From Diphasiastrum complanatum (lineage: Eukaryota > Streptophyta > Lycopodiopsida > Lycopodiales > Lycopodiaceae): a stretch of DNA of 64,000 bases. Positions 2,210 to 45,287 of this stretch are shown piece after piece (positions within the stretch are counted from its first letter, which is position 1; each line of letters begins with the position of its first letter). The notes beneath the pieces were generated by a model. It saw nothing but the letters and a program-made list of their open reading frames with translations. It was not told where the DNA came from and did not search any database. Position numbers and translations under genes: made by a program. The DNA is taken from positions 2,069,334 to 2,133,333 of the forward strand of contig CM055100.1 of the NCBI GenBank assembly GCA_029204225.1, given 5' to 3'.

Positions 2210-3071
2210 TGTTGAAAATTGTCACTTCTCACTTGACATTGGTTCATGTAAATATTGATCAAACATTAGAATATGTTGATGATATGATTTCACACGTGTG
2301 GAGCATGTTCCCATGTGTGAAAGGATGTACTTTTCATGTTTGTATATATCCAAATTGATTTTGTATCATTCTAGTTAGTGTGAACATGAAATGACTAGTT
2401 TTTAGTCAAGTTGACTAGTCACCTACAAATTAGCTTTTCCTTGCATGTGCATGAGTAAATGCTCCCACATGGCAAGTGGATGTTCACATGTGTGTATAGA
2501 GTACTAGAAGATAAGAGTTGACCATTTTCCTTAGATCCTATTTTGTAGGGAATATTCCTATATTCTAGGAGACTAGCTTTTTGGATTTTAGTCATATTCT
2601 AGAAGGTCAACTATTGGATAAGGATCAAGGATGGATCAAATGGATAGATATGAGTGATGTGGCACTCTTCACACGTGTGAAGGCCTGCTGGACTGTACCA
2701 GACTCATGGATGTACTTGATCCATAAAAGGATCATCATTTTGCTAAGAAAATTGATGAGACTTTTGCACTCTACACTTTTGTGAGATTTCTAGTCATTTG
2801 TCTTGTGATTTTTATGCATGATTGCTATCTAGTATCATTGTACTTGTTGTTTCAGGTGCAGGCCGTACAGTGGACAGTACTCCACACGTGTGAAGCCGCT
2901 CTCACTAAAAAATGATGTGTTGATCCATTGCTCTTGCTTAAATCCAAGTGTAGTGAATCTAGATCAAGATCTAATGTGTAGAACTTGATAGATTCATTGA
3001 TTAAGCAACCAATAACTCTCTATGATTGTAAAGTACAATCATTATTGTCCTAAAAACTGTAAAATTTATCA
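2210..3071 (+). repeat. 3' LTR of copia family A (862 bp)
   Basis: It begins TGTTGAAAATTG and ends AAATTTATCA, the canonical TG...CA. It aligns over its full 862 bp with the 5' LTR at 22162-23023, with scattered substitutions only. The palindrome CACACGTGTG occurs three times (2291, 2670, 2883). The five bases after it (caata) would be one side of a target duplication; the other side lies upstream of the window. Confidence 0.9.
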
Positions 3072-4789
3072 CAATAGAATATCAAATGATGGAAGTAGCA
3101 ACAATCAAATATCAAAAGACCCGAAAGGGTCATCATTTGTACACATTGAATGTAAATTTTTGAAGTACATATTTTTGTGTTGGCCTTTCAATAAGACCAT
3201 CTATCTATTTTTCTATATAAATTTTTTTTCCATGAGTTCTTTCAAGTAGTGCAAGCTCTCCAGCTTCTTGTTCCGTTGTCACCGATGTTGCATTAGAGAG
3301 AAAAATCTTAATCATCTCTTGTCGAAATTCAAATATGTCATTTTGTGTGAATTTTGGACAGGTGAACTACAAATCATCAACAATAGACAAGTTAGAAAAA
3401 TACACAAAAACAAAAAATCATATAAATAAAATCAGTGTACATCCAGACTCAAATTACTTGACGTATATTGACATTTTCACCTTGGCTGATGAACCATTCC
3501 ATAAAGCATTTTACATTTTTAATGGCATACCAGTCACAACTGAATGAGTCAACTTGCTGAGAGGACTGAGAATCAAAATAGAGAATGTTAGTTTCACATT
3601 TTTTATATGGCAATTTGCATTATGAAAAAAGTAAATGAAAAATTGGTTACATGTGCGTCTATTATCTCTATGTGCTTTGCTACACACAGGGCCTTTGTTG
3701 GAAAATATATGATCATGCTTTTGTACATCTCAATGTCGACATTGAGATGTGTTGATCTCAAAGAGTTCATTCTCAACACCGTGGATTGACAAACCGGCTT
3801 CATCCACTCTTAGTGATATAATATGTACAGACCAGTGCTGACTGCAATCAACCAAATAGTCAATGATATGTAAATGAAAAAAATACAAATAAAGCATATA
3901 ATGAAACAATACATACAATTCAAATTAAACAATACATACTTTTGACAATATAATACAACAAAAATTTTGGTATCGCTTGGCATGGGTCGTAAACATGATG
4001 AAGCTGATTGCTCGTCATTAAACAGGTGACAAAAAAAATTGAGTAAGCACAAAAATACCTGGAACACTGTCGCTTTTGTACAACTGAACCCAATAATTGA
4101 GTCCAGCTTCGACAATTGGGTCTGTGAAGTCCGAAGACTTATTCATTAATTCCTTACAGATAGCAGGTTTAAATAGCTCATATATGATATATTGAATACA
4201 AAGTGACCACCTAATTTATCTATTTTTTTTAGCTCATATCACCCCATTTGGTTTGGAAGCCCACCAAAAACTCTAAGTTTCGAGTGAATGTGCGGCCGCG
4301 CGGACTGTGGGGTCGGGACAGTTGATATTTTTCTTTGAAAACTAGATAAGATCCCTTTTGGCATCTACATCCATCTTCCAACTGTACTCTGAAAAGATGA
4401 CCAGCCAATTCATATTATCGAGTGTGATTTGGTCGAGAGGGCCCGTATCCACATTCTGGCAGAAGGGGGTATACATGCCCTTTTGAGGACACTACAATTT
4501 TGTGCCCTTAGTTGCATCCATAGCAGCTGTAAATTCTTCCACCTTGTCGTTGAGGTTGGGCAATGTAGGTCGCATAATACTCATTGAATGCTAGGTTGTG
4601 AATGGATGCCAAGCCCTTAGAGGCTGTTTTGGGTCTCCACTACCCTTCCACACCTCCTTCGCTAGCTGAGAAAAGTCCAAGCACAAGAAAGCACACAAAA
4701 CAAGCTAAATCTACCCCAAAATCTACCTAGGACAAGCTAAAAAGCAAAGGCAACTAAAAGAACCACTATACCTAGTTAGTGAAAGCCTA
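3072..4789. other. AT-rich stretch with no recognised gene; lower part probably interior of the Ty3 element
   Basis: No long open frame or known domain is evident. On the minus strand, 4587 to 4331 reads as a plausible coding remnant with two stop codons; I cannot name its family. A minus-strand segment near 3730-3918 contains a His-Trp strand pattern (SQHWSVHII) that loosely recalls Ulp1-type (C48) peptidases carried by some plant transposons, but this is too weak to call. A perfect 26-bp palindrome lies at 3725-3750. Confidence 0.4.
3725..3750. repeat. perfect 26-bp palindrome
   Basis: The half-site acatctcaatgtc is followed immediately by its exact reverse complement, with no spacer, centred on a SalI-type gtcgac. 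By chance a 13-bp perfect arm is expected about 0.001 times in 64 kb. Confidence 0.9.
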
Positions 4790-4807
4790 TCCCCGACAAC
4801 GGCGCCA
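4790..4807 (-). promoter_or_regulatory. primer-binding site of a Ty3/gypsy element (tRNA-Asp type)
   Basis: Read on the minus strand this is tggcgccgttgtcgggga, one base downstream of the LTR end. It is the PBS typical of plant Tat/Athila-like Ty3 elements, complementary to the 3' end of tRNA-Asp. It fixes the element's orientation as minus and marks 4809-5562 as its 5' LTR. Confidence 0.8.
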
Positions 4808-4808
4808 T

Positions 4809-5562
4809 TGTAGAGTGTGTTGAATAGTCGATGAGCAGCCCTCTACCTGTCAAAAGGGTTAGAACACAAAGATAGGGCCCTAACTATACTTAGTTGCTAA
4901 TTTAAAAGCTTACTAACTCTACTTTAACACTACCCAACCTTAGTACTACTTCAACTAACTCTAAACACAAGCATTCATCATGATTGAGAGTGAAAAAGAG
5001 GAAGAGAATGAGAGTTAGAGGGAGGTTAGCTCATGTGCTCATCCTAGCATACGAGAAACCTTAACTATTACAAAGCAAGAACTAGCAAATGGGAAGCAAG
5101 AAGCAAAACACAATGAAAAGCATAAGCAAGCAAAGATAGCACATAAGGATGCTTAAGCTCTCAAATTAGTAGAGTCTCCTCCTCTCAAATAAGCATGAAA
5201 AATGGTTACAAATGGTGCCTTTTTATCTTTGGGGTGGCCCTTGCCCCCTGTTTCTTATTGGCTACTTGCAAGAAGGTGGGATTGAAATACAAGAAACACA
5301 AACAAATCTATGGTGCAGGAAGAAACACACCCCACCTACCACCATTTGACTTTGACTAGTTTACAAAACTTAGAAACTTAAGTTTAAGCTTAACTTTGGC
5401 CTTCTAATATTATTTTTAATTACATGGTCCAAAGTCAAGTTTATGTCCAAAATTATTTATTTACAACTGCTCATTGGACCATGGGCTTACGCATGCAGGA
5501 TGCCATGACCCTCACAACTATTTGCAACTAATTTATTTATTTACATGGTAATACCCTCAACA
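4809..5562 (-). repeat. 5' LTR of a Ty3/gypsy element (754 bp)
   Basis: In element orientation it begins TGTTGAGGGTATTACC at 5562 and ends CTCTACA at 4809, with the PBS one base beyond. It cuts a copia gag just after its zinc knuckle at 5563, so it inserted after that copia. No second copy of this LTR is recognisable in the window, so the interior below 4790 is truncated and most of gag-pol is missing. Confidence 0.75.
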
Positions 5563-6062
5563 TGAGGTTAGCTTGCTTGATTTGGTTCTTTTTCTTGAAG
5601 CAATTAAAGACATAGCGGCCTTTCTTGCCACAAAAGAAGCACTTGATCTTCTTCTTCTTCCCATTAGATGCTGAAGCTTGAGATGATTGATCTTCCATCT
5701 TTGACTTTTTCTTTGTCTTTGTCCTTCTTGAAATTTTGTTGTTGTCCTTTGCTCCTCCCCTTTGGCTTGCCCTTGGTGAATAAAGGTTTGTCCTCTCCAC
5801 CATCCTTCAATGAGAGCTTGTTAAATCTCAAGAGCTTGTTCTCTTGCCTACATTCTTCAGCAATAAGGACTCCCTGAAGTGAATCCAAGCCTGGAAGATC
5901 CTCCTTGATTGCATAGGATTGGAAAATGTTATCAAACTCATCTTTCAATCCACTAAGGATGACTTGGACTTACTCACTTTGATTAAGATGATCTCCTATG
6001 CATGCAAGCTCTCTATGAAGATCTTTCACTCTCATGACAAAGTTTGAAGCACTCTCATCACT
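5563..6062 (-). pseudogene. copia gag fragment (family C), C-terminal half with zinc knuckle
   Basis: Minus-strand frames give the gag UBN2-type region (ASNFVMRVKDLHREL, then SYAIKEDLPGLDSLQG), a lysine-rich linker and a CCHC knuckle starting CFFCGKKGRY. The knuckle has lost its usual His: the pattern reads C-x2-C-x3-GRYVFNC. One in-frame stop (about 5971) and one frameshift (about 5700-5800) break the frame. The downstream part is cut at 5563 by the Ty3 LTR, and the upstream part ends at a junction with a different gag near 6062. Confidence 0.8.
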
Positions 6063-7012
6063 CTTTAGAGAAATACTCTTCATGACTTGTCATATGAGAA
6101 CTTTCACCACTATCAATCCACGATGGATCGATGTCACCTTCACTTGACAACAAACTTGAAGACATAAAAAAGAATTCATCATTTTGTTCAACACCATGAT
6201 CAGTTAAAGTTGAATTTCCTTGCTTCTCTCCATGATCTCTCTTTTTCTTGTAACATTCATTAGAAAAGTGTCCTTCATTCCACAATAAAAACACTTAAGC
6301 TTAGACTTGTCCTTCTTCTTACCACCAAAAGAGGATGCCTCACCTTGATCCAAGTTCCCTCATGCTTCTTGAATCCCTTCCCTTTGCTTTCGCCTTTACC
6401 TTTGCCCTTAGAGAGAATGCCTCTTCTCGTCCTTGAGTTGAAGTGGCTCCTCCTCTTGCTTGTAGCCTATGTTCTTCAACAACTAAGACCTCTTGTAAGT
6501 CCTCCACACTTAGAAATGTCTTTTGGATGGCAAAACTTTGCACTAGGTTAGCATGATCATCTAAAAATCTATTGAGCATTACTTGTACAAGCTCTACTTC
6601 TTTAATGCTATCATTAGTACATGCTAGATCATCATTTAAGGCTTTGACCACTCTCCCCTTCCTTTGGGATACATTGGAAGATTTGCCTTCTTAGGGTTAG
6701 GACCCTAGAAGTGGACTTACTTTCATACACCTTCAAGGCAGTCCAAACTTCACTTGAAGAAGTGCATTTCCCAACTTCCTTAAGAAGTTCATTTGTCAAA
6801 TTCGTTTTTATGATGTGGAGTGCCTTCTTGGCCCTCTTATTATACCTCACTTGGTCTTGAAGCACCAAAGGCCTCTCTTCCACACCTGCAACAATATCCA
6901 TCAAGTCATTCGACTCAAGTAGGGACTCCATCCTTACTTTCCAAGTAGAATAGTTAGCTGAGTTGAGCCTATCATTACTTTCCAACATGATTCCACTTAT
7001 AGTAGCCATCAT
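6063..7012 (-). pseudogene. copia gag plus start of protease (family B)
   Basis: The reading starts at an ATG near 7009-7012 with the usual copia gag opening (ESNDRLNSANYSTWKVRMES) and runs through UBN2-like sequence, a basic linker and a degraded zinc knuckle (CGKKGH equivalent reads LWNEGHFSNECYKKK). It then reaches the protease motif WIDSGESSHMT near 6110-6130, where the conserved Ala after DSG is Glu. Frameshifts fall near 6640 and 6300. The frame ends abruptly at about 6062 where family C gag begins, so the rest of protease, integrase and RT are missing. No LTR or PBS is recognisable upstream of 7012. Confidence 0.82.
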
Positions 7013-10000
7013 GTATAATGATTACACTATCATTAGTATCATACAAATTCAATATCTAACTTGATTCATTAAAATGTCAATGGAGTGCCTTATTGTTCTC
7101 GCCAGTAGACAAATATAGCACTTTAGGTACTTCCTTCTTGGTTACACACATGTGGCTTCTTGTTACTCATAGTACACAATGCTTTCAGTTTTGTAGTAGT
7201 GCATGTGATTGCCAATGGGATAGCAACTCAATTCATAAGCAAAGTCTTTAATTCAATTCTTTAAGAGATTTTTAATGACCATTTTGAGATTTCACCATGT
7301 TTACTTTTTCATTCTTTGATAAGTACATTTGGGCGATGTTATATCTCAAGAACATCGTCGTTGTGATATCAATCCTTCGTTCTTTAACCTATCCAAACCC
7401 AATGTTAATGGGATAATACCAAGGTCTCAAAGGATCTGTTCAAGACAAGATTCAATATGTTCGAACAACATACAATAAGTCTGTGTGTTGAAAAAGCTTT
7501 TTGTTGAAAGCTATAATGACCACTTCATGATTGATTCAATCTCTAGATTTCTGACCGTTGAGAACGTTACTTGAGGATATGAACTTACTAAGGAGAGGAG
7601 TGGCTATCTCCTCTCATACCAAACCATGCCATACTCACCTGATGGATCTCTCCACACTTTCTTTATGCTAGATCTATGTGGGAACAAGAAGAAAGTCTTG
7701 GTGCAAAAAACAAGTAACATATTTTTGGTGTTGCGCTAGATTCCAAGAGACTCATCCAGTTTGATGATTTTTGTTGTTTTTGCAAGTTTGGCTGTTGTTT
7801 GATATTGGCATGATAGCTGTCCACCATTTTGTTAAGTATGTTCTCGCATTTACCTGGTTTTCTGCCTCTGAAAATTTTGCAATTCTTAGTTATTGAGCGT
7901 AAGCTCAAATATGTGTGCTTGTGTTTGAGTTTTCCTTTTAGGCCTATGTTTAAGGTTTGATCATGTGAATTATTCTTTATGAAAATTCAAGTTTGAGCAC
8001 CTCACAAACTGTGGATATGAACCATTTATGTCTTTTGAGTTCACACGTGCCAGCTCAATCAAAATTGCATCCTCATGTTCATTTTTAAGTTTGTCTTTGA
8101 GAATGTGTCCAAGCAACATATTTATCTTTCGCATCTGTAATTCTGTGAATGTTCATGTTTTGTGTTCAAGGACTCTCCTTGGAAAATTATGCAAAATTCT
8201 TGTACTTGAGTTTGCACATGCAAGCTCAAACAGGAGCTTACATGTATGATTTTGTTAATACATATTCAGGTTCAAATACTACATCTATCTTCCAGTATAT
8301 CTTTTTCATGAAAACTCTGTTTTACAGTAATTTTTGCCCCTATGATCTATGCTTGTACCCTACATTGTTCTGTTTTTATTACACGTTCTTGCATGGTCAT
8401 GCCCCCTGCCATTCTTACACAACCATCCCTCACCATATGGGCAATTTATTACAAATCTGTCATGTAATAAAGCAAGTCTCTCAATTTTTTTGGCAGTTCC
8501 TTTAATTTTGAGTATTTGGCAAACACTATCAACCAACTTGAACTGAGTCTAACCTTTGCAAGGCAAGGCCAACAAAATTCACATTGATACAAGGCAAATT
8601 GTGATGGCACACCTTTCAGAAGTACATGCTAACAAAGCTTCTGAATTTTCGATGCAAACAAGAACTAAAGCTATCATTCGATTTTCAGTGATTTCATGCC
8701 AAAATGGATTAATGCAATCACTTGATAATTTGCCTTCCCACAACATAGCATTGCCAAACCTTCAATTTGTATTGTTGCTAAGGAGGAAAAAAGCAGCTTG
8801 TAATCAGCAAAATCCATCTTGCTTTCATGCTCAATTGCTGACATGGGCTAACGTTTCTAGCCTTGAGTAAGGTTGTATTGATCTGCATTGCCCCATTTTA
8901 CATCCTCAAGAAAAAATTTGAATCAAGTAGTTTCTTTCTGGAAAGAAACGTCCCTAAATTTTCGTGGAAAAAAATCATTTTTGAAAACTTTTAGGCAATC
9001 AGGATGTGAGATCATCTAAAACCCGAAGACAAGCTTAAAAAATAATGATCCGAAGACGTGCAAATCATAATTCCTTGTATGTCACATTAAGGACATTAGG
9101 CGTCCGTTTGTGTACACTATAAAAAAAGAAACTTCGTCGCAGGCTGATTTTAAGTGAATGGCATGCAAAAAATTGTATTTCATCAATCTGAAAATGACCT
9201 CTTAATGCAACTGGGTAGCTTTTACACTATAGAAGTGTTGTAGGGTCTGTAAACAATAGTTCCTGTCACTGGATTTGACCTAAAGTGCATTCTGGCATAC
9301 TTGTTAGTGGTAAAAGTCAGCCAAGTAAAGGACCAAATCAGAGTGAAAAGCTAGCTAAAATAAATGAGCATCCCTTGAGCAGCGCCCAAATGAAAACATC
9401 ATGCTTCAAAAACAGGCCAACCCTTTGATTTTTTAAAAACATTTTGATATATCAGAATCAGCCAAAGATATGGATCATACATCATCACAAACATTAAAAC
9501 TTATAACAACTGTCTAGATCCATTCCCTCACCAAGCACCGCTGCCAAAATATGTAGCCTCCTTGACAACAGGCAAGCACTCCAAGTTAGTGTAGTCCATA
9601 ACGTGCAGGGTTTGGAACCAATAAGGATAAGGGTGGAGAAAAAAAACCTTAGTAAGATGAAGAAGCTGAATGGTAGCCAGAAATAGTCTCAAATCTAGGT
9701 CAAATCAAAATGTTTCTTCTAGTTTTTAACTGATCCAACATGTTGAAACAAAAAGCATACAACAGATCACCTTTTAAGTGATTCTGAGAACAGATGATAA
9801 TAGTGTACAAAGTAGGCACTAGGTTTCTCCACGATGAAGCTGGCATGAAATTTTCCAAGTAGTTCTCCATACTTATCACATTTAGGCCAGTAGATATACA
9901 ATATGAAGCACAGATGGAGAGTCACGAACCTTAAAGCCCTCCCTCAATAAGATTCAATTAGCTCTCAAAGTAAAGGATGTAAAAGTTAAGGCAAATGTGC

Positions 10001-10544
10001 TTATTACCGCCATCCTAGAAGAGAAATTGGAGGTGCCACATTTCATGTTCAAAGGACTTTATTTGCCATGATTGTCCTGCTTTCTTCATTTTAGACCAAA
10101 AACCAAGTTTTTCATCTAAATATTTTTGAGGAACCTTTAGATCACAACGACATAGTAAGCCAACCAACTATAAGCATCCGAATCCAGGATTGCCTAGCTA
10201 TAAATTGCTGCAATTAGCATCTGGCATAATATTGTACTTTGTGATCTTCCAACTCAAGTTGTACTCCTGACAATCCTATGTTTTGCACAATTTTATCATT
10301 GCCATGGTGAAAGTAATAACATGGGTTAGTAGCAATCCATGATCCCCAACACGCAACAAAGAAGCTCAATCACTGGTTTTCAGGCAACATTAGAAATCCC
10401 ATCTCTTATGGCAGTAGAAATGTACAATGATATTGTGGAGCTGAATGACAGCAGGATAGCAATATGCTATGAAGTTGAACGTGCGACGTCATTCACATTT
10501 GCAGTGTTTTATAAATAATTGTCCTGTTGGAACTCATATACTGA
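7013..10544. other. 3.5-kb stretch with no convincing gene
   Basis: I see no long ATG-started frame, LTR or RNA gene. The 104-codon frame at 8556-8870 starts at TTG and shows no family features. One short minus-strand segment, 9661 down to the TGA at 9528-9530, ends in a protein-like stretch (YTNLECLPVVKEATYFGSG) that could be the last exon of an unrecognised gene. The part nearest 10545 is likely 3' flank of the PPR gene. Confidence 0.5.
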
Positions 10545-12392
10545 TCAAAGCACGGTCTCCAATGCAAATATCCTTTTTGCAATACGTCTCGCCATCTGCA
10601 GCTTACCATAAAGCCTACAAGCACCTAATAATGTTGTCCATACACAAGAATCGGGTTGCCATGGCATATTGGTGATTGTGTCCTCTGCTTCATCAAAGAG
10701 GCCGGAACGCCCAAGAAGATCAACCATACAGGTATAATGCTTAAGTGTTGCTTGGATACCATAGACTGGATTCATGGACTCAAAGAAGTAAACCCCTTGC
10801 GCCACTTGGCCTGAATGGGTCCAAGCTGAAAGAAGTGAAACAAAAGTGCCATTGTCCAATTCCACACCTTCTTGGCACATACGATCAAATAGAAGAAAAG
10901 CGTCTTTGGCAAGGCCATGCAAAGCATAACCCCCAATCATGGAAGTCCAAGCAACAACATTGCAGGTCGGCATGCTGTCGAACACTTTGCGAGCATCCTC
11001 TATGCTCCCACATTTTGAATACATGTCAACCAGGGAACTGCCCACATGCAAGTCACTTTGCAATTGTCTTTGAATCACAAGCCTATGGACGAATTTGCCC
11101 TCCTCGAGAGCAGCAGCACTAGCACATGCACTCAATACCGCCAGAAAAGCGAGCTTATCCGGCTTGACCTGTTCGTGCTGCATCCATCGAAACAGTTTCA
11201 ATGCCTGCCTTCCCTGCCCAAGCTTGACATATCCCATGATCATGGCACTCCAGGAGACCACATTGCGTCTAGGCATTTCCTTGAAGACTCTATGAGCATC
11301 CTGGACGCTACCACATTTGACGTACATGTCGATCAGACAATTGGCCACAAAGAGATCCGAATCCAACCCACTTTGAATGATTTGCTTGTGAACTAGCCTA
11401 CCCTCCTCAATTGCTCCAAGACTAGCACATGCATTGAGGACTCCTACATAGGTGACTCGGTTTGGCTCCACCTTACCTTGCTGCATCTGTTGAAACAAAT
11501 GCAATGCCTTCTGTCCCTGACCACACTTAGCATAACCCATGATCATCGCACTCCACGAGACCACATCGTGCTCAGGCATCTTGTAAAAGACACCGCATGC
11601 TTCTGCTATGCTGCCACATTTGGCATACATGTCAACTAGGCAGCTGCCCACAAACACGTCCACTTCACACCCACTTCTTGCAATATGTTCATGGATAAGC
11701 CTCCCATGTTGCAATGCCCCTACAATGGCACATGCCTTGAGAATTGGAATAAAAGTAAATTTGTCCGGGCTCACGTGTTTTGCTTGCATTCGATCATAAA
11801 GCTGCAATGCTTTCATGTGTTGTCCATTCTTCACAAGTTGTGAGATCTGCACATTCCAGGTAAAATTACTTCGTTCTATCACCCTCGGTTTCAAAGTCCC
11901 CAATCTTTCTTTTACCCAATCAGGGGTCGTCCCACTCTCAATCCAAAGCGCCTCCTGCGTTGTTTTGTGTTTGAAATCAGGATGTCCATCCTTTTTCTGG
12001 TTACACGAGATCGAATCCAGATTAGGGTTTAGGGTTTAGTCAGCATCCATGGGCATTTTATCCACTAACAAAAAAATTCTTATTTTCTACTGCGGAACAC
12101 GTTCAAACTTCACCTTCTCAAACCTCTGATCCCACCACCGTGAAGTATCCGAAAAGAACTCTCTCCAAAGCTGCTCAGCGGTCATCTCCGAGCCCGACCC
12201 AAATTGTGGACCTGCCAAAAATAGCTTCTCAAAACCAATCGACTTAGATATAGAAGCATAACCAGGATTTTCTACTAGGATTACATAAGAAATGATTTGG
12301 GCGGGCATGTTAGAAACCGGGTGCTGAAAGGGAAGCCCTGCTACATGCAAACGATCTCCTAACATCCGATATCCTTGAGCATTGGATTTCAT
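10545..12392 (-). CDS. OSB-like PDF motif fused to a PLS-class PPR protein (two exons, minus strand)
   Basis: Exon 12392-12114 ends in LWREFFSDTSRWWDQRFEK; exon 11996-10545 begins KKDGHPDFKHKTTQEALWIE and TPDWV. Spliced in phase 0 across a 117-nt GT-AG intron, these form the PDF motif of plant OSB proteins (organellar single-stranded DNA-binding proteins). The earlier GDRLHVAG resembles the end of the OB fold. The same frame then runs into twelve PPR motifs in P/L/S order, for example LVDMYAKCGSIAEA, followed by an E-like motif (VWTTLLGACRLYG) and TGA. The predicted role is organellar nucleic-acid binding: the PPR array recognises RNA, and the OSB part would bind single-stranded DNA. No DYW domain is present, and the E motif breaks off after FALE. 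No ATG lies between the intron and residue 30 of the PPR part (11816), so the PPR frame alone lacks a normal start. Alternatively, a PPR gene may have landed in a decaying OSB gene. Confidence 0.72.
11997..12113 (-). other. predicted 117-nt intron in the OSB-PPR gene, carrying a telobox pair
   Basis: The donor is GAGAAG|GTGAAG at 12113 and the acceptor GTAACCAG|AAAAAG at 11997. Splicing restores the WWDxR...PDFKHK spacing of the OSB PDF motif, and both exons keep phase 0. The intron contains in-frame stops, so splicing is required for the fusion. Inside it, 12021-12039 is attagggtttagggtttag, two overlapping plant telobox motifs (AAACCCTAA), a motif usually found in promoters of translation and organelle-biogenesis genes. 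Confidence 0.68.
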
Positions 12393-12609
12393 AGCGGAGA
12401 TCTAATGATAATTGAGACGTTCCACCCATAATTTCACCACAGCTGGAACTTATATGTCCTTGTAGCGATCCGCTGCGCCGACGTCTGAAGGACTCCCAGT
12501 TCACATTGATCTTCGGTCTTAAATTATGTCTGAAACTGGTGCGCGCATTCTCGTACAAACAACTGTGCAAGGACTTGGCCAATGCCCCTTCCATTTCCTT
12601 CAGTCACTG
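12393..12609 (-). pseudogene. possible 5' exon(s) of the OSB gene (transit peptide and OB-fold start), frame disturbed
   Basis: An ATG at 12594 opens a frame rich in Arg and Ser (MEGALAKSLHSCLYENARTS), like an organelle transit peptide. The OB-fold-like piece TYKFQLW lies in a second frame, and the downstream GDRLHVAG exon in a third. Either unrecognised introns or small frameshifts separate them. A plausible acceptor (ttcttacacaaagctccag) ends near 12609. I cannot decide between spliced gene and decay by eye. Confidence 0.35.
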
Positions 12610-13413
12610 GAGCTTTGTGTAAGAAGACAATTCACCAGCAGGTATACTCTAGAATTGAGCATAGTGATAAATATTGTGATAGCACAACACAGACTTTACC
12701 ACAACCTAAGCAGTCATGCAAGCTATACCAAATATAATGCAGGCATGTCCAGCTTTTATAACTTATCAGAAGAAAGAAAAAAAACCATTTTTTATTCGAA
12801 ACTTTTGTAAATAATTAGAGCAGAAACAAAAAAAACTCCTGTTTCAACCAGCTGCAAAAAAGACCCAAGGAGTTCATGAAGCAGGAAAGAACATTGGGTT
12901 TCTTAATCCACCCGTTCTCCTGATTTACATCACTTCATACAAACGAACGGGAACGGGCCAGCCACATGGAGAGCTGCTCTTAGTAGAGCCAAAACAGCCC
13001 AAAAATGGTTCTCTAATATAGGAGTGAGCTAAAATGTCAATAGATTATGGCATAGCCTCGAAAGCATGCCCAAGTTGCATCCATACCCACCCATTCTAAA
13101 CCTTTTGGGTTGGAATGTTCTATTCCTGTATGTAGGGATCATAAAGAAATTTGTTTTTTTAGAGTAAACAACATCCGTTAACAAATTTGAGATCATAGTG
13201 GAGCCAATAAACCAACATTGAATTTAAAGTTACTGAGATTTGAAAGTGAAAATTGACTAGCAATAACTCAATAGCTTCTTCTTTTTTGAAGGCTTAATGA
13301 TACTATTGCATTTTCACAAATATACAAGTACAAAAAGGATGGCAACTCGTGGCCAAGACAGTCAGCAATCCAAAAGGACAACTTTATACACAGTCATATA
13401 CATAGCTTTAAAG
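12610..13413. other. intergenic, nothing recognised
   Basis: AT-rich sequence between the OSB 5' end and the family D RNase H. The 3' LTR of family D should lie here (minus element, below 13414), but I find no segment clearly matching the sequence beyond its PBS at 18862. Confidence 0.5.
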
Positions 13414-16400
13414 TCAACAAACTTTAAGTACATAAAGCTTTGATCTAAACTTATCAAACTTTTCTCCAACAAGTGGCTTAGTGAAAATATCAGCTAGTTG
13501 TTCTTCTGTGCTACAATGAACAACATGAATTTCACGACTCAGCAGCCTCTCACGTATAAAGTGATACTGAATCTCAATGTGTTTAGTTCTCGCATGGAAC
13601 ACTGGATTCTTTGCTAGCTGAATGCCACTCTGACTGTCGCTATGTAAAGTCGCAGGATTTTTCTGCTTCATGCCAACTTCTTCCAAGATTTGTCTCAACC
13701 ATATAGCTTCCTGTGCTGCACTACACATTGCCTTATACTCTGCCTCTGTGGTGGAAAGAGCAATTGTACTTTGCTTCTTACTAGACCAGGAAAAGCAACT
13801 ACCACAAAACTGGAATACATACCCTGAGGTAGATCTACGATCATCATAGTCACCTCCCCAATCCGCATCCACATAGCCACACAACTCAGGTAAACCATCA
13901 TGCTTCTTGTAAATCAAGCCATACTCTGAAGTGCCTTTTACATAACGCAAAATGCGCTAGTTGTCTTCCAATGCGTTTCCGTAGGTGCTGCCATAAACCG
14001 ACTTACAATGCCAACAACATAGCATATATTTGGTCTAGTCATGGTAAGGTAAATCAAGCTCCCTACTAACTGCCTATACAGCGTAGCATCAAATGACTGT
14101 GACTCATCAAGCTTAGAAAGTTGTTTACTTGGTTCAATAGGAGTATTTACTGGTTTGCAATCCTGCAACCTAAACCTGTGCAACAACTCTTTGACATACT
14201 TCACTTGTGTTAAACCCACTTCGTGTCCAATTTGCCACACCTCTACTCCAAGGCAATAATGCATCAGGCTGAGATCTGTCATCTCGAATTGTTCCATGAG
14301 TTCTTTCTTGATCATATCTATCATCTCTTGATTATTTCCCATAATAATCAAGTCATCAACATAAAGAACAATCAAAGCAACCATACCATCAAAGCATAAG
14401 ACATATAGATTTGGATCAGAGTGTGTTCTCACCATCCCCTTTGAATGAAAGTAGGCATCAATCCTGCTATACCATGCACGTGGTGCCTGTTTAAGACCAT
14501 AAAGCGCTTTCTTCAAGCGACATACTTCATTCTCCTGTCCTTTCACTACAAAGCCTTCAGGTTGAATCATGAACACCTCTTCTTCCAACTCACCATTCAG
14601 AAAAGCAGATTTCACATCCATCTGATGCAAAGGCCAACCAAAATGTGAAGCTAAAGCAACAAGTAGACGTAGAGTATTCCACTTACATGCCGGCGCAAAG
14701 GTCGCCTCATAGTCGATGTCTTTGCTTTCTGCATACCCTTTGATCACGAATCTTGCCTTGTGCTTTGCTATACTTCCATCTGCATGGTACTTAGTCCTGT
14801 ATACCCATTTGCAACCAATGGGTTTCTTGCCAACTGGTAGTTCTACTAAGTCCCATGTGCTATGCTTAGCAATTGACTCCATCTCCTCTCCCATGGCCTT
14901 GACCCAAATGTCATCATCCTTTGCTTCACCATAAGTCGATGGTTCTTTGCTTTAAATAATGCTAGATAAGAGAGCATAATTTGCTTCATACCTCTCAGGT
15001 TGTGTCTTCTCTCTTGTTGATCTTCGTAGCTCTCCCTGGCTAGATGATCCTGGAAAGTCATCCATGTCGCGGCTCTCCAACAATCTCTCAAACCACTTAG
15101 GGAGCTTCCTGTCAGGTGATCGGCTTCCTAGTGAGAATGTATCCCACGGTACATCCTTCTCCTTGCGTTTGTCACTTACAATTTCAATCCTTCTTGCACC
15201 AAAAGGTTTGTCCCTACCTCTCCAACCTGTCTCTTGAGGTTGAGTAGTAGTATCTTGAGATGTATCCTCATGTTCATCACTCGGAAGGTCAATGAATGGA
15301 TCAGCATCAGGTACTATCCTCACTATACCATCTTTCCCACTGGATGTCTCTATCTTCTCAGCATCCTCGTCTTCATACATCTTGGATTCATCAAAGATAA
15401 CATCACGGCTTACATGGATTTTGTTTTCCACTGAATCAAAACATCTATAGCCCTTCACACGATCATCATATCCTAGAAATATACACTTGATAGCTTTTAC
15501 ATCAAGTTTCCGTCTCTCTTCTTTAGGAATGTGTACAAAGGCCTTACATCCAGAGATTCGCAAGTGGTTCACCTTTGGCTTCTTCTTCGTGAATGCTTCC
15601 TCAGGTGTTATCTTTGGTATGGCAATGGTAGTACTTCTATTTTAAAGATAGACTGCCGTACTGCATGCTTCTGACCAAAAATCCTTTGGTAGTTTCATCT
15701 CAACTAGCATAGATCTGGCACTTTTCACAATCTTACGATTCTTGCGCTCAGCTACACTACTGAGAGCAGGAGTATGAGCTTGCGTAAATTGTCTTTTAAT
15801 CCCACATTGATCACAAAGATCATTGAAGTCATAAGACATGTACTCACCTCCACTATCTGATCTTAGGACTTTGATCTTCCTACCTATCTGATTTTCAACC
15901 AATGCTTTGAAACTCATGAAGTTGTCAAATGCATCTGATTTCTTCTTCAAGAAGTAGATCCATGTCTTACGTGACATATCATCAATAAAGGTCATGAAAT
16001 AGAAGGCTTTACCTAAGGACATTGTCCTCATAGGCCCGCATAAATCTATGTGGATTAAATCCAGGAGGTTCTTTGCTCTTGCAACACCCCCTTTATTGAA
16101 CTTCTCTCGATGCTGCTTCCCATATACACATGATTCGCACATCGATTTCAAGTGGTCTTCAATGGTAGGCAATCCTATTACCATCTCCAATTTTCTAATC
16201 AAACTGAGACTTCCCAAATTCAAGTGACCAAGCCTCTTATGCCACAACTCAGTTTGCGATGGAATGGACGATACAAGTCCATATTGCCCCTTGATTGTAG
16301 CTTTCAACCTGTACAATTTTGTATTGGGCTCCCTTACTCCATCCACGATAACTTTGAACTTTTGGTTCACATACTTCACAAAGCAACGATCATGGGTGAA

Positions 16401-17551
16401 TTCTACTTTCAACTTCTGATCAGTAATGACTCCAACAAAAAGTAGATTTTTTTTCAAACCTAGTACGTAAAGTACCTCTCTGATCATCCTGCTTTTGCCA
16501 TCAGGTAGTTGGATTGAAACAATGCCTATCCCCTTGATCTTGCACATATCGGCATTTGCTTGTGAAACGGACGTTCCATTATCCAACACTTTCAAGGTAC
16601 TGAACCAATTCTTGTTACCTGTCATGTGTCTTGTGGCGCTCGAGTCAATATACCATGCTTGATCATCTTGATTAGATGACAATGCAGATATGAAGATGCT
16701 AGAGTCTTCAATCTCACCCTCATCGACAAGGTTACCTGCTTGCTCTGGTTTCCCCTTGCCTTGTTCCGCCAAGAATTTGCGACATTCACTCTTCCAATGG
16801 CCTGTTTACCACAATGGAAGCACTTGTCTTTCTTCTTGGTCTTACTGGAAGATCCCTCATCCTCTTGAGACTTGGCAAATTGCTGCTTAGGCTTCTTCTT
16901 GCCCTTGCCCTTGCCTTGTTTCTGGCGTGTTGCAAGTGTCTGATCGTCAGTATTTTGACGTCTAGCTTTCACCATTTCTTGTCGTTGCTCTTCCTACATC
17001 AAGATTCCTATGAGCTCGTCAAAGGTTGGCAATCTTTCTCTTGATGCTATTCCGCTCACAAGCATCTGATAGGGTTCTGCAATGCCGCACAATGCATTGT
17101 GCACCAGCTCCACATCACGTATGTGCTCACCAATAGAATGCAGTTCATCCCTCATTGTCTTGATTCTGGTCATATACGTCTGAATGTGCTCTCCTTGCTC
17201 CATGCGGGCACTATTCAACATTGACTTCAGAAACATGATTCTTGATGGATTTGACGTCTCGAACTGCTCCTTTAGCACATCCCATGTCTGTCTGGGTGTA
17301 ACAACATCACAAATGTGGGTAATGATGTGATCCTTCACTAACAAGTTAATGAAGGTCAAAGCTTTCCTCAACTTTTTGTCGAACACTTTGATATCCGCTT
17401 CATTTGGCGGCCTTCTCTCATCGCCTGTGACAACTTCCCACACGTCTTTCTCCATCAATATGTTTTTCATTTTGAATTTCCACACTGCATAGTTGGAAAT
17501 CCCGTCCAATTTGCTACTTTCACTCAAAATGGACTCTCCCATGTTTGTCAT
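13414..17551 (-). pseudogene. copia gag-pol (family D), full length but disabled
   Basis: The order on the minus strand is gag (ATG at 17551 or 17542, MGESILSESSKLDG...), zinc knuckle start CFHCGK near 16820, protease near 16650, integrase 16500-14950, RT (YVDDLI near 14355) and RNase H to 13414. Damage seen: TAG replacing a Gln codon near 16994, where the related copy at about 30143 has CAG; a frameshift inside the zinc knuckle; stops near 15640; breaks near 14950 and 13945. The protease triad reads DSS where the other copy has DSG. Integrase keeps HKRLGH...CESC, HIDLCG, LRSDSGGEY and AERKNRK. This is a separate lineage from families A, E, F and H (different gag opening KLDGISNYAVWKFKM). Confidence 0.9.
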
Positions 17552-18849
17552 CACAAAACTGCTTGAAACTTTTGCCGTAGGCTAAAAACAGTATGCCGAG
17601 GCCAACAGTGATGTCAAAAGCTGAAAATAATGACTTGCACTTTTTCCCTTACCAGGCCACTCGTCGCTTTTCCACCAATTTGAAAGCCAAATCAGCGTCG
17701 GCTTTCGAAATGCACTCAGTCGTCAACTCCCAACTACGTGCCTAGTGGAATGGTGAAATCACTTTTGGCGCACTCCGAACACTTTCTCCGCTGCAATCAC
17801 TCTGTTTTGCTGTACCATACTTGCAGGTACAGTCCAGGTGCCCTTCATTTGGAAGTTATAGCCTTTTGTTTGGGTCTCAGACAAAGGACCCAAAAATAGG
17901 GACTTTTCTCCTTTTTGATTGTTTCTTCAAAGTGAAGAAACTTCACACTTCATGAACTTGGGACCCAACTCAACTCTCAATGTGAAAATTTTTATTGAAG
18001 TTGAATGGCTATAATTACTTCAAAACCTCTTTGTCTTCTTCAACTGCCCTTCAGACTCCATCTAAAGGTCGATTTTGATCCAACTGTGGATATTCATCTT
18101 AAGTAGCGCGATCTCAACCGTCGATCCATATCTACTCTCAGTCCTACAACTGTGATCTTTCCAAAATGTTGAAACAGGGTACTCTAGCCGTTGGACACTT
18201 CGGAGCGCTACAGCTCCACTCCCTTCACCGCGCACGACAACCTCCTCGCGGCCTCCTTCTCCTTCACGAGCTTCAAGCTATGGCTGCAAGGTTTTGTCCA
18301 CCCAGCTCTCATAGATCCAGTGCGTTGTACTACTTGCGGCTGTCCACGGCCACTTCAAGTCTGATTCGTACTGCTAGGGCGCCCTTCTCTGAGATCTCAC
18401 AACAACCAAAATAGTTCAGAACAGAGAGAAAACCAAGTATTTAGGCTTCCAAACCCTTGACCAGGGTTTTGCTTGCAACTTTTGATCTTGGCTTGCTTTT
18501 CACAACTCTCTAGCTGGCCAAATCAATTGCTCTGAGGTCGCCCTACCATTGGAAAGCTGATGCTTCAATCCGTTTGTCAAACGGTGTCCGATTGATTGTA
18601 CACTGACTGCAAACACCGAATAGCCTCTGGAATTTCAAAATTCCGTTTGTCGAGATTCTGATTCATCCGATAGCCCTTGTCTCTGAATCCTCACACAGTC
18701 TCAAGCTTACCAAGCTTCTGTGTGCTAAACTCTTTGCTCCAGTGTTTCTCCTTTCGTCTTCAACCCGCCGTAAACCCCGAACTCTCAAAAGACAGTTCTC
18801 CCAAAGCTCTCTTCAACGGCGATGTTGTACTATGTACACTCCCTGTACC
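17552..18849 (-). other. long untranslated leader of copia family D
   Basis: 1.3 kb separates the PBS from the gag ATG. It aligns with the leader at 28371-29585 of the second family D copy, for example the shared stretches around the PBS, a gagagttcgggatttacg-like segment and a block just before gag. No open frame of note is shared. Leaders of the other copias here are 144 to about 810 nt. Confidence 0.7.
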
Positions 18850-18861
18850 GCTCTGATACCA
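18850..18861 (-). promoter_or_regulatory. primer-binding site of copia family D (tRNA-iMet)
   Basis: gctctgatacca on the plus strand is tggtatcagagc in element orientation, complementary to the 3' end of initiator tRNA-Met. It marks the end of the 5' LTR, which starts at 18862-18863 and extends to higher coordinates. Confidence 0.88.
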
Positions 18862-19200
18862 ACTTAGAATTTGCTTTGCACAAGAACACGGATCATGCTA
18901 CACGTAACACAGACAAAAAATACTCTCCACAGCAAGCTCACATAGTACACAATACATATAGTTGTTCACTCAGGCAACCCATGCATGACCCAAGTTGTCG
19001 TTGGCGGGACGCGTGTCCCGTCGACTTGCCTCATGGCGAGGCCAATTGATCCTTATCCACTGATAGGACCCACAGTACAGTAGCATAGTGATTCTACTTT
19101 AATGTTAACTGCATGAACCACCCAACCAATATGGAGAGGCTAGTCAATACCCTAACCAATCCACCCCCAAGCCACAGTAAAGAACACAAGAGAGGAGAGG
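18862..19200 (-). repeat. probable 5' LTR of copia family D (outer end uncertain)
   Basis: Placed by the PBS at 18850. The inner end (ttctaagt in element orientation) lacks a clean CA, and the outer end is not resolved because family E LTR sequence abuts it; 19200 is an estimate. No matching 3' copy was found below 13414. Confidence 0.4.
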
Positions 19201-20070
19201 AAGAACTGGCTCAAGAATCACAATTCACAATAGGAGGATGGGCAAGTTTCCAATAGACCTATTCTTCTTAAGAGAGATGGAATATTCTCTTTAGGATACC
19301 CATGCAACCTAAATTGAGCTATTGATCTCCTATTCTTGCATCAAAGCTGTATTCACCATGCATGTGAGTTGATTTTCACACGTGTGGACTGTCCACCACA
19401 TGTACTTGTGATCTCCTAAGGTGTGTAGATGCACCAAGATCAAGACTAGATTGAGATTCAAGATCAATCTTGAATCCTATGGCAAAAACACACTACTACA
19501 TGCATTCAATCACTTCCAACTCTCACTCACACATGTGGGAAGTATTCAAAAAATAATCTAAGTAAAAACAAGCTGCTCTCCTCGGGTAGAGAGAGAAAAT
19601 ACATCAAGAGCTCTCGGGTAGAGAGAGAAAGCTAGAAATCCAATAACTCACCAAATCCATGAAATCACCAAATCAATTGATTTCAAAATGAGGAGTACAA
19701 TAATACTAGTAGGTCCACGAGCTACCACTATGCTTAACTATGATTGGACCACATTTTGTCACCTCTTGATCCTATTGGATCATTGATCTATGCACCTCTT
19801 AATTCTATTGGACTATATTCAAGCACACCTCAATTTCCTATTGGACCTCTTGGAATTAATCAAACAAAAACTTTACACTTGTCTACACTCTAATTAGCAA
19901 GTGTTTAGCCTCTTACTCTATTTTGGCTCAATAGTGGCATTACAAGTGGAAATGCATGATTTGTCATCTATGCCAAATTTATTCCTATCAACATCCTACA
20001 CCTAGATGCTTGATGTAAAAAGCATAAGACCCCTATATCTAACATAGATAATCTTTTTCAATTCTTCACA
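19200..20070 (-). repeat. 3' LTR of copia family E (inner end clear, outer end estimated)
   Basis: In element orientation the purine tract gaggagtg is followed by TGTGAAGAATTGAAAAAG at 20070, a normal LTR start. It carries CACACGTGTG at 19377-19386 and a short direct repeat, ctcgggtagagagagaaa, at 19581 and 19613. The far end near 19200 is only estimated. Confidence 0.6.
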
Positions 20071-20088
20071 CTCCTCCTAAAAGATTAT

Positions 20089-21605
20089 CTATGAAGATTT
20101 GAGCATTGATCTTGATATAACTCCAAGATTAGATCTATGCTTGATGAAAGCACTTTTGCTCAAAGGCTTGGTGAGTAGATCGGCAATACAAGAGGACGAG
20201 TTGACATGCTCCAAATAGATTTCTCCTCCAATAAGCTTTTCTCTCACAAAATGGTGTGCCACTTCTATGTGCTTGCTTCTTGCATGAAATATGAGATTAT
20301 TGGCAAGAGCTTGGGCCGAGATGTTATCACACTTGATCATTGGTAGATCATCCTCCTTGATGCACTTTAGTTCCATTAATAACTTCTTGATCCAAAGCAC
20401 TTCTTTGGTAGTTGTAGTGAGTGCTTTGTACTCTGCCTCACATGAAGAGAGATATATAGTATCTTGCTTTTTGGAAAGCCAAGATATTAGATTGCCTCCA
20501 AGAAAGATAGTGTATGCACTAATAGACTTTCGATCCATTTTGTCACTTGCAAAGTCCGAATCCGAGTAGCCAATAATGGATAGATCTTCACTTTTATAGA
20601 GTAAACCATAATCACAAGATGAAGATACATATCTTAAAGTCCTCTTGGCCATCTTCCAATGATGGATCTTAGGTTCTTACATAAATTGACTCAATTTGTG
20701 CACACAAAAACTAAGATCGGGCCTAGTAATGGTAAGCCAAATCAAGGAGCCTACAAGACTCCTAAAAAGTGTGATGTCCTCAAAGGATCTTTCATCACCT
20801 TTATTAGGATCTTTTACAATTTGCTCCATTGGAGTATCTATGCTCTTAGAATTTTTCATATGGAATTTTTTCAACATAGAGTGAGCATATCTAGATTGGC
20901 ATATAAAGACATGATTTTCATAAAAATCAATTTCTAGGCCTAGGATGTAATGTATCTCTCCTAGATCTTGCATTTTAAACTCACATCCAAGTGCTAGCTT
21001 GGTTTCATCAACTAGCTTGATACAACTTCCACAAAGAATAATGTCATCAACATAAATTAGAAGAATGACAATATTGCTATCAACAAACTTTAGATACATG
21101 GAAGGATCATAGTCACTAAGAGTAAATCCTAGTGAGATAAGGAAAGAGTTAAGTCTTGAATACCATGATCTTGGTGCTTGCTTGAGTCCATAAAGACTTT
21201 TGAAGAGCAAGCACACTTTGGACTCATCCTTGATGAATCCTTGAAGTTGTTCCATATAGATCTCCTCCTCAAGATAACCATTTAGAAAAACATTGGATAC
21301 ATCTAATTGGAACACCTTCCACTTGAAAAAACAAGCAAGAGAAATAAGAATTTTTATTGTCACCATCTTTGCAACGGGTGCAAAGGTCTCCTCATAATCA
21401 AGACCATGGATTTGAGCAAATCCTTTGGCACATAATCTTGCTTTATGCTTGTTGATGGTGCCATCATGATTGAACTTGATCCGAAATACCCACTTGCAAC
21501 CAATTACATGCTTGTTGGAAGGAGGATCCACAAGCTCCCAAGTATTGTTGGTGATCAATGCATCATACTCTTGCTTCATGGCATCACACCACTCCTTGGT
21601 ATTGC
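20089..21605 (-). pseudogene. copia pol 3' half (RT and RNase H), family E
   Basis: The minus-strand frame covers KEWCDAMKQEYDAL at the start of RT, the YVDDIIL catalytic box near 21045, RNase H (SDSDFASDKMDRKS, SSCEAEYKAL) and the terminal LLTKPLSKSAF. The only visible lesion is one in-frame TAA at about 20674-20676 where relatives carry Gln. At about 21605 the frame is joined head-to-head with a plus-strand copia fragment, so everything upstream of RT is missing. Confidence 0.88.
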
Positions 21606-22161
21606 ATTCATATCCACAGAGACAAAACGAGACGAATGATTTACATCACTCAACAAAGGTATCATCACAATGTTCTAAACAGATACAATCTAATGAATTG
21701 TAAATTAGCTCACTCACCGATGGATCCACGCCTACATTTGTCAAAGGACCAATGTCCCCAGACCAAGCAGGAAGAGGAGCAAATGGGAGAGTATCCTTAT
21801 CAATCGATACTTGGATCTCTCATGTACGCAATGATTTGTACAAGACCAGATATCTCTTTTGCAGTAAGCTCACTCAGCCAATATATGGCTAATCCTGGCA
21901 TTACCCATTGGAAGGCTCTCATAAGAGTCATGAGATATATTCGAGCTACCATGGACCAGTGCATCTGCTATGGAGATGTCATCAACGACAATCTTCATTA
22001 GCTCAAGGGATATTCTGATGCAAGCTGGGGAGGAAATGTAGACAATCGTAAGTCCACATCTGGATTTACATTCTTCTTCACCGACGCTCCTGTCTCATGG
22101 AACAGTCATAAACAAACCTCTATTGCACTTTCTTCTACAGAAGCAGAATACATTGTAGCTT
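21605..22161 (+). pseudogene. copia RT end/RNase H fragment (unassigned family)
   Basis: The plus frame reads IHRDKTRRMIYITQQ, then SILGSLMYAMICTRPDISF, then after one stop GYSDASWGGNVDNRKSTSG and SSTEAEYIVA. These are the connection domain and RNase H of a copia lineage different from A-J here. It stops exactly where the family A LTR begins (22162), inside RNase H. Confidence 0.85.
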
Positions 22162-23023
22162 TGTTGAAAATTGTCACTTCTCACTTGACATTGGTTCATG
22201 TAAATATTGATCAAACATAAGAATATGTTGATGATCTAATTTCACACGTGTGGAGCCTGTTCCCACGTGTGAAAGGATGTACTTTTCATGTTTGTATATA
22301 TCCAAATTGATTTTGTATCATTCTAGTTAGTGTGAACATGAAATGACTAGTTTTTAGTCAAGTTGACTAGTCACCTACAAATTAGCTTTTCCTTGCATGT
22401 GCATGAGTAAATGCTCCCACATGGCAAGTGGATGTTCACATGTGTGTATAGAGTACTAGAAGATAAGAGTTGACCATTTTTCTTAGATCCTATTTTGTAG
22501 GGAATATTCCTATATTCTAGGAGACTAGCTTTTTGGATTTTAGTCATATTCTAGAAGGTCAACTATTGGATAAGGATCAAGGATGGATCAAATGGATAGA
22601 TCTGAGTGATGTGGAGCTCTTCACACGTGTGAAGGCCTGCTGGACTGTACCAGACTCATGGATGTATTTGATCCATAAAAGGATCATCATTTTGCTAAGA
22701 AGAAAGATGAGACTTTTGGACTCTACACTTTTGTGAGTTTTCTAGTCATTTGTCTTGTGATTTTTATGTATGATTGCTATGTAGTATCATTGTACTTGTT
22801 GTTTCAGGTGCAAGTCGTACAGTGGACAGTACTCCACACGTGTGAGGCCGCTCTCACTAAAAAATGATGTGTTGATCCATTGCTCTTGCTTAAATCCAAG
22901 TGTAGTGAATCTAGATCAAGATCTAATGTGTAGAACTTGATAGATTCATTGATTAGGCAACCAATAACTCTCTATGATTGTAAAGTATAATCATTGTTGT
23001 CCTAAAAATTGTAAAATCTATCA
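22162..23023 (+). repeat. 5' LTR of second copia family A element (862 bp)
   Basis: TGTTGAAAATTG...AAATCTATCA, with the PBS following directly. Same length as the LTR at 2210-3071. CACACGTGTG occurs at 22243, 22622 and 22835. It interrupts the RNase H fragment ending at 22161. Confidence 0.93.
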
Positions 23024-28370: not shown

Positions 28371-29585
28371 AGAGTTCATCGTGGTACTTTCCTTCATTTT
28401 TTGAGAGTTCGGGATTTACGACGGGTGGAAAGCGAAAAGTGAAGCACTGGTGCACAATTTCTAGCATACGGAGGCTTGCCAAGCTCAAAACTGTGAATGG
28501 ATTCGGAGACAGGAATTGTCGGCTGAATTGGAACTTTAGCCAAACGGAATTTCAAAGTTCCGTAGGAAGGCTACTTGGCATTTGTGATTGGTATGCATCC
28601 AAGTGGACACCGATTGAAGAATGGTTTGAAGCAAAAGATTGCTTGTTGTAGGGTGACCTCAGGGCAAAGGATTGGCTTGCTAAAGACCTGTACAGGGGCT
28701 GCTAAGTCCAAGGAAAGGAATAAAAACCCTGGCCTAGGGTTTGAGACAACAAAAACATCATTATCTCTCGTTTCTCAGCATTTTTGAGAGTTATGAAAGT
28801 GTAGGAGAAGCCGCCCTAGGCAGTACAACGATCTACTAAACGGCCGCGGGCAGCATAGTGCATTGGATCAGTTTTGTGGGCAGCCATACCCTTTCCACCA
28901 TAGCCAAAAAGCAAGTAGAAGGAGGAGAGGGTCGCGACTGAGGACTCACGTGCGTCCAGTCTGAGTTCTGGCATAGTGCTTTAAAGAGGGTGCACATATT
29001 CGCTGATGACCGTTGGATCTTGAAGTCTAAAGGTCAATGGTGCCAAACAAATCGATGTGGGCCATCAAATCTAGAAGGGCCATTAAGATGTTAAAGAGGG
29101 TCCGAAGAGTATGAAGTGCATTTGGCCATGCAACTTCATTAAAAATCTTCAAAGTGAAATTGGAGTTGGGTCCCAAGTTTTTGAAGGTTGAAGTTTTTTT
29201 AAGGTGAAAAAACAGTTCAAAAGTGCAAAGAGTTCTTATTTCACCTCCTTTAGCCGTTTTGGATCAAACGAAGGGCTACGGACTCCAAACGGAAGGCACC
29301 CGGACCATACCTGCAAGTACGGTATCGCAAAATAGAGTGATTGCAGCAGAGAACGTGCTCAGTGGACGTCAAATCTCTTTAGCCCCTTTCAGGGAGTGGA
29401 TAGTCAGGAGTGTGAGGTAAAAGGCATTTCATGTTTGGAAAGTGACTTGGCTTGCAAAACGCCACCTAAGCGACGGGACGCCTTGGTGTGAAATTTTAGC
29501 AAGTCATTAAAATAAGTTACTGACGTCGCCATTGTAGTCGAAACACTTCATTTAGCCTACGGTTGCAGTTTTAGACAGTTTTGGG

Positions 29586-30963
29586 ATGGCAAACATGGGA
29601 GAGTCCATTTTGAGTGAAAATAGCAAATTGGTCGGGATTTCTAGCTATGCAGTGTGAAAATTCAAATTGAAAAACATACTAATAGAGAAGGAACTGTGGG
29701 ATGTCGTCACTGGTAATGAGAGAAGACCGCCAAATGAAGCGGACATTAAAGTGTTCGATAGGAAGGCGAGGAGAGCTTTAACCTTCATCAACTTGTCAGT
29801 GAAAGACCACATCATTACCCACATAAGTGATGCCATTACACCTAGACAAGCATGGAATGTGCTAAAGGAGCAGTTCGAGACGTCAAATCCATCAAAGATT
29901 ATGTTTTTGAAATCAAAATTGAATAGTGCCCAAATGGAGCAAGGAGAGTACATTTAGACTTATATGACCGTAATCAAGACAATGAGGAATGAACTGCATT
30001 CTATTGGTGAGCGCATACGTGATGTTAAGCTGGTGCTCAATGCACTATGTGACATTGTAGAGCCTTATCATATGTTCGTAAGCGGGATATCATCAAGGGA
30101 AAGATTACCACCAACCTTTGACGAACTCATAGGAATCTTGATGCAGGAGGAGCAACGACGAGAGATGGTGAAAGCTAGACGTCAAAATACTGATGATCAA
30201 GCACTTGCGACATGCTAAAAACAAGGCAAAGGCAAGGGTAAGAAGAAGTCTAAGCAGCAATTTGCCAAGACTCAGGAGGATGAGGGATCATCTAGCAAGA
30301 CCAAGAAGAAGGGCAAATGCTTCCATTGCGGCAAAAAGGGCCATTGAAAAAGCGAGTGTCGAAAATTATTGGCAGAATCAGGCAAGGGAAAACCAAAGCA
30401 AGCAGGTAAACTTGCCGACAAAGTAAAATTGAAGACTCTAGCACCTTCATATCAGCATTGTCATCCAATCAATATGATCAAGCTTGGTACATTGACTCGG
30501 GAGCCACAAGACACATGATAGGAAATAAAGATTGGTTCAGTAGCTTGAAAGAGTTGGACAATGAAACGTTTGCTTCACAAGCAAATGGTGATGTGTGAAA
30601 GATCAAGGGTATAGGTACCATTTCCATCCAACTACCTGATGGCAAAAGCAAGACGATCAAGGAGATATTTTATGTACCAAGTTTGAAGAAAAATCTACTT
30701 TTCGTTGATGTCATTACTAATCAAAAGTTGAAAGTAGAATTTGTCCATGATCGTTGCTTTGTGAAAAATGTGAACCAAAAGTTCAAAGTCATTGCGGATG
30801 GTATAAGGGAGCCCAACACTAAATTGTACAGGTTGAATGCTACAATTAAGGGGCAACATGGACTTATCTCGTCCATTTCATAGCAAATTGAACTATGGCA
30901 TAAAAAGCTTGGTCATTTGAACCTAAGAAGCCTTAGCTTGATGAAAAAATTGAAAATGGTGAA
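29586..30963 (+). pseudogene. copia gag-protease-early integrase (family D copy), truncated
   Basis: ATG at 29586 or 29595 (MGESILSENSKLVG). It aligns along its length with the gag to integrase zinc region of 13414-17551. Stops: TGA near 29657, TAG near 29957, TAA near 30217, TGA in the zinc knuckle near 30345, TGA near 30598, TAG near 30882. The protease keeps YIDSGATRHM. Homology ends at about 30963 just after ELWHKKLGHLNL, so the integrase core and RT are absent. Confidence 0.88.
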
Positions 30964-39118: not shown

Positions 39119-39123
39119 TATTC
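39119..39123 (+). repeat. left target-site duplication of copia F (tattc)
   Basis: tattc at 39119-39123 equals tattc at 45283-45287, directly flanking the two LTRs. Confidence 0.9.
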
Positions 39124-45282: not shown

Positions 45283-45287
45283 TATTC

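Follow-up and report, generated by a model that had tools for sequence, protein, structure and literature searches.

A block resembling the PDF motif of OSB proteins is joined in frame to an array of PPR motifs on the minus strand of the window – the whole stretch of 64,000 nucleotides analysed here – and at the DNA level this joining is confirmed. Our favoured reading, held tentatively and a little short of even confidence, is that the locus is a nuclear chimera in which a partial OSB gene has been combined with a fragment of a PLS-class PPR gene. In its favour are the presence of half a PDF motif and the PPR array within one exon, with no in-frame ATG between them, and the gapless match of the array to the synthetic protein 9kfx; so too are the canonical length of every motif, a stop-free frame of 576 codons and fitting splice signals. 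A fusion of this kind had been proposed by the sequence-only reading: the in-frame joining of the PDF-like block to the PPR array stands, as does the PPR half, whose identity is certain from its profile matches and from the alignment to 9kfx, while little of the OB fold was found.

The window is plant nuclear DNA that carries a CDK-inhibitor gene of the KRP type along with many copia elements. The Kip-related gene lies about 21 kb from the chimera, at 33141-34888 on the minus strand; its last exon matches the Pfam CDI profile at 4e-07, its introns were placed by eye, and it begins MGKYMRKGKRVG... and ends ...YNFDFRNGVPLEGRFEW, the N-terminus being one to which we take the KRP name to apply. 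A copia-type polyprotein frame runs uninterrupted for 1322 aa at 40618-44586 on the plus strand, and repeats of 683 nt at 39124-39806 and 44601-45283, which are 98.5% identical, are likely LTRs; the element is young and possibly active. Directly upstream of the chimeric gene is a broken copia element (13414-18800, minus strand), and the stretch 16180-18022 shares about 80% identity with 29112-30960. The idea that an LTR of the upstream element provides a promoter was rejected: blastn of 9001-13460 against 13401-23000 returned only the 60-nt overlap itself and five matches of at most 20 nt, and on the side of the gene no LTR matching the element was seen. Rfam gave nothing at gathering scores.

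The joined reading frame

Frame translation of the minus strand revealed two ORFs, 12401-12087 and 12035-10545, lying in the same register. Once the predicted intron is removed, WWDQRFEK is joined to KKDGHPDFKHK and a single frame of 576 aa runs from an ATG at 12392 to a stop at 10545. The 117-nt GT-AG intron put forward beforehand is plausible: its splice signals fit, and its removal completes the PDF block. Its ends, with the slash marking the splice site, are a donor AAG/GTGAAG and an acceptor AACCAG/AA; the donor resembles those of the KRP-like gene in the same window (GAG/GTGAAT and AAG/GTGAAA, read by eye). Branch-point-like sites occur as CTAAT (A at -26) and CTGAC (A at -44), GC content is 0.39 as against 0.46-0.47 in the coding parts on either side, and four of the twelve GT-AG pairs tested between the two PDF half motifs leave the frame open. 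Within the predicted intron, at 12022-12038 on the minus strand, there is a telobox-like sequence, TAAACCCTAAACCCTAA, a plant telomere-type repeat that forms a 17-nt run of about two and a half units.

Table 1. Features of the chimeric locus, in positions of the window
Feature	Positions	Strand	Basis or remarks
E1 motif ending ...AKRIFALETVL, with stop codon	10545..10652	-	9kfx alignment, motif reading
Array of twelve PPR motifs in the order (P1-L1-S1)3-P2-L2-S2	10653..11867	-	Pfam, TIGR00756, 9kfx, motif lengths
PDF second half and short linker KKDGHPDFKHKTTQEALWIESGTTPDWVKERLGTLKPRVIER	11871..11996	-	same exon and frame as PPR array
Predicted GT-AG intron	11997..12113	-	exactly 117 nt, two in-frame stops inside
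OSB-like exon	12114..12392	-	OB-fold-like tail, linker, PDF first half; open frame 12401-12087
Candidate N-terminal ORF MEGALAKSLHSCLYENARTSFRHNLRP..., 94 aa, ATG 12594	12310..12594	-	transit-peptide-like by eye

Exon 2 (11996-10545, minus strand) is a single open frame of 483 codons and a stop, in which the second half of the PDF-like block, the twelve PPR motifs, E1 and the stop follow one another in that order. Because the PDF second half and the array share this exon, this part of the fusion is independent of the intron call. Exon 2 has no in-frame ATG until 11816, which falls inside PPR motif 1; the PPR part is therefore without a leader of its own and relies on upstream sequence. A candidate leader upstream has nine K/R against three D/E in its first 50 residues and a GC content of 0.46 versus 0.37 further upstream, and found no match in Pfam. 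In three-frame translation it does not share the frame of the OSB-like exon; it either needs an additional intron or is a relic. Many GT-AG joins between leader and OSB-like exon can be drawn and none was decisive.

Codon statistics do not settle the coding status of the joined gene. They are clear only for the PPR part, where the own frame has the highest score. The OSB-like exon likewise has its own frame as the best of six, but by a small margin: at 0.012 per codon it exceeds the noncoding mean (-0.095, sd 0.087) by about 1.2 sd. In the 42 codons of the PDF second half the own frame scores 0.010 versus 0.102 in another, and in the 71 codons of the candidate leader -0.071 versus 0.017. A simulation of random substitution without indels gave the 576-codon frame a probability of remaining stop-free of 0.47 at 1% substitution, 0.22 at 2%, 0.022 at 5% and 0.0005 at 10%. 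So steep a fall indicates that the joined frame is either constrained or young; between these the data do not choose.

The PPR array and the PDF-like block

All twelve PPR motifs have canonical lengths – 35, 35 and 31 residues three times over, then 35, 36 and 31 – and the exon 2 frame matches PPR_2 of Pfam at 7.1e-69 and TIGR00756 of NCBIfam at 1.9e-58. Alignment with the synthetic PPR-DYW protein 9kfx is gapless over 438 residues (E 3.4e-160), and across the 438 residues of the array there is neither stop nor frameshift. The earlier claim of twelve P-L-S motifs is borne out by these lengths, by the Pfam match and by the alignment to 9kfx. A profile check had been suggested for both families: it succeeded for the PPR side, with PPR_2 and TIGR00756, and gave nothing for the PDF block, which had no Pfam or NCBIfam match at E up to 10.

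AlphaFold, run on the exon 2 frame without an alignment, predicted helical hairpins forming an alpha-solenoid, with a whole-model mean pLDDT of 70.8; values are below 50 at residues 1-39 and 41-55, which comprise 13 residues of predicted intron and the PDF side. Foldseek returned 9kfx as the best chain for this model (1.5e-26, 54% identity), and the top-ranked chains were PPRs. Tandem motifs of 35, 35-36 and 31 aa that end in P2-L2-S2, together with a helical-hairpin solenoid, place the array in the PLS class; its style we take to be fern-like. It does not qualify as a PPR-DYW editing factor, the frame stopping at the end of E1 without E2 or DYW. A decayed E2/DYW beyond the stop was considered and rejected, since nothing of the kind was recognised downstream: the minus-strand frames of 2300-10560 match only copia gag and DUF4219 (Pfam, E up to 0.1). 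The three PLS units differ from one another by dN 0.32-0.50 and dS 1.26-2.19, values that speak for past constraint on the repeats and not for present function.

The OSB-like exon reads GDRLHVAG...AQIISYVILVENPG, by eye the tail of an OB-like fold, followed by a linker and then by LWREFFSDTSRWWDQRFEK, the first half of the PDF-like block (LWREFF...WWDQRFEK), upstream of the predicted intron; the second half, in exon 2, reads KKDGHPDFKHKTTQEALW...DWVKERL. The joined block fits the OSB PDF motif in its length of 55 aa, in its Pro-Asp-Phe tripeptide and in its position behind an OB-like tail, and the spacing of 13 residues between WWD and PDF presumably agrees with that of Arabidopsis OSBs. We take its family to be the OSB PDF motif, an assignment that its resemblance to OSB sequences and the published descriptions make very likely. 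The best PDB match of the block, XopAI at 0.044, was judged to be due to chance.

Of the remainder of an OSB protein there is less. The OSB-like exon matched no Pfam profile, and its AlphaFold model (without alignment; the last eight residues are predicted intron) had a mean pLDDT of 38.5, too poor for a structure search. Pfam detected no N-terminal OB half, either in this exon or upstream to 13420. The OSB part looks incomplete, with only the OB-like tail present by eye. According to reviews, OSBs occur in green plants only and carry, behind an SSB-like domain, one to three PDF motifs of 50 aa, the PDF motif being the part that binds ssDNA (PMC6963530; PMC4166229); the PDF of AtOSB1 is given as sufficient for this binding (PMC6963530). 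One review has OSB lost in Pteridophyta (PMC4166229), a statement that counts against an OSB gene here if the source plant belongs there.

Origin and possible function

The main rival to the chimeric-gene reading is a young, non-functional chimera, in which an incomplete OSB copy and a fragment of a PPR gene were brought together by duplication or retroposition and remain open by virtue of recency. We consider this less probable, though a substantial possibility. Selection is not needed to explain the openness of the frame, given a stop-free probability of 0.47 at 1% divergence; both partners look truncated, with no OB N-terminal half recognised, a leader out of frame and a PPR part that ends at E1 with nothing recognised after it; and codon use in the PDF second half does not favour its own frame. 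The chimeric-gene reading is itself weakened because the OB N-terminal half is not recognised, the leader is out of frame and E2/DYW is missing, and further because codon statistics are indecisive and copia elements are abundant throughout the window, a setting in which gene fragments are common. Yet 438 array residues without a stop or frameshift, the canonical length of all twelve motifs and an intron well placed between the PDF halves all argue against a dead chimera.

Were the gene instead a full OSB-PPR protein, the OB half and transit peptide would lie in upstream exons, either on the far side of the copia element (about 13.4-18.8 kb) or beyond the limits of the window. That element begins close upstream (13414) and could have enlarged an intron, and an acceptor-like AG stands just before the OSB-like exon; however, no SSB/OB match emerged from the minus-strand frames of 12380-13420 and 18800-22200 (Pfam, E up to 10) or of 31000-40600 (Pfam, E up to 0.1), the upstream stretches that the scan covered and in which short divergent exons could escape it. 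On balance we think a full-length protein improbable. Least probable of all, to our minds, is a pair of genes, in which the PPR gene has a start of its own and stands apart from an OSB-like gene or relic. OSB and PPR genes are otherwise described as separate families, and the telobox-like repeat of the intron resembles what we take to be a promoter element, but the region between the PDF block and the middle of motif 1 holds no in-frame ATG, so that a separate PPR product would lose part of motif 1 together with any transit peptide.

If the locus is a chimeric gene, its front would derive from the 3′ portion of an OSB gene – an OB-fold tail and one intron-split PDF motif – with the joining point in frame inside the exon that holds the PDF second half. 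The PPR fragment would be one of the PLS class that arrived without its own start, transit peptide, E2 or DYW, and the OSB 5′ part may supply both promoter and organellar targeting. Through the PPR code, in which SD and TD specify G and NN a pyrimidine, the PLS array would be expected to bind a single organellar transcript. In the P and S motifs the fifth and last residues are, in order, ND, SD, SN, NN, SD, SN and TD, with TP in S2; leaving the L motifs and S2 open, the predicted target over P and S motifs is roughly 5′-U n G A n Y G n A G-3′. One review assigns SN to A, ND to U and NS to C, and gives Ser and Thr at the fifth position a preference for purines and Asn one for pyrimidines (PMC11094755). 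Editing, if there is any, would require a DYW partner in trans, and some PLS proteins without C-terminal domains are described as working with partners in trans (PMC8809517).

The PDF motif might add a general affinity for single strands, which could keep the factor close to R-loops or organellar DNA. Since the code is reported to let designed PPRs bind ssDNA as well (PMC11094755), a sequence-specific ssDNA role for the array is conceivable by analogy. The chimera is possibly a working organellar PPR factor. That it is expressed as an organelle-targeted PDF-PPR protein, whose PLS array and ssDNA-binding motif tether a specific nascent transcript, or a specific ssDNA site recognised by the array itself, to the organellar genome – in effect a natural sequence-specific OSB – is a bolder proposal, and one we hold to be unlikely.

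Relation to known proteins

With OSB proteins the chimera shares a PDF-like block containing Pro-Asp-Phe behind a tail that is OB-fold-like by eye; it differs in that the N-terminal half of the OB fold is not recognised and in that a PPR array comes after the PDF block, where OSBs have the protein end or further PDF copies. With PLS-class PPR proteins of the E1 type it shares the order (P1-L1-S1)3-P2-L2-S2-E1 and canonical motif lengths, 9kfx being the closest solved chain, whereas a PDF block occupies the N-terminus in place of a leader of their own. Relative to PPR-DYW editing factors it is truncated, no E2 or DYW having been recognised. We regard it as a PLS-class PPR whose N-terminal partner is unusual. 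The designed protein cPPR-Telo1, which presumably lacks a PDF motif, differs in being designed. It is matched in sequence and fold (5orq/5orm) and illustrates that the PPR groove can read ssDNA (PMC11094755).

Relatives were sought in genome_contigs and viral_contigs. The PPR ORF gave 13 pattern stretches in viral_contigs, the PDF block 27 in genome_contigs and two in viral_contigs, and the PPR segment 85 and 12, respectively; none was confirmed. These are collections of prokaryotes and viruses, and missing relatives therefore mean little. The claim that no protein with this order has been described went uncontradicted by titles and the starts of abstracts in the open-licence PMC literature, where no OSB-PPR fusion appeared. 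A review that mentions OSB, the PDF motif and PPR together has, in the portion available, PPR passages that concern RNA polymerase, and the added domains that another names for PPR proteins – SMR, Rf-type, DYW and DYW:KP – are C-terminal (PMC11094755).

An N-terminal PDF fusion would, if true, unite organellar DNA surveillance and RNA processing in one protein, and would exemplify how expanding PPR families gain targeting signals from other genes. Even if the chimera is dead, it offers a clean snapshot of the birth of a chimeric gene in a copia-rich plant genome.
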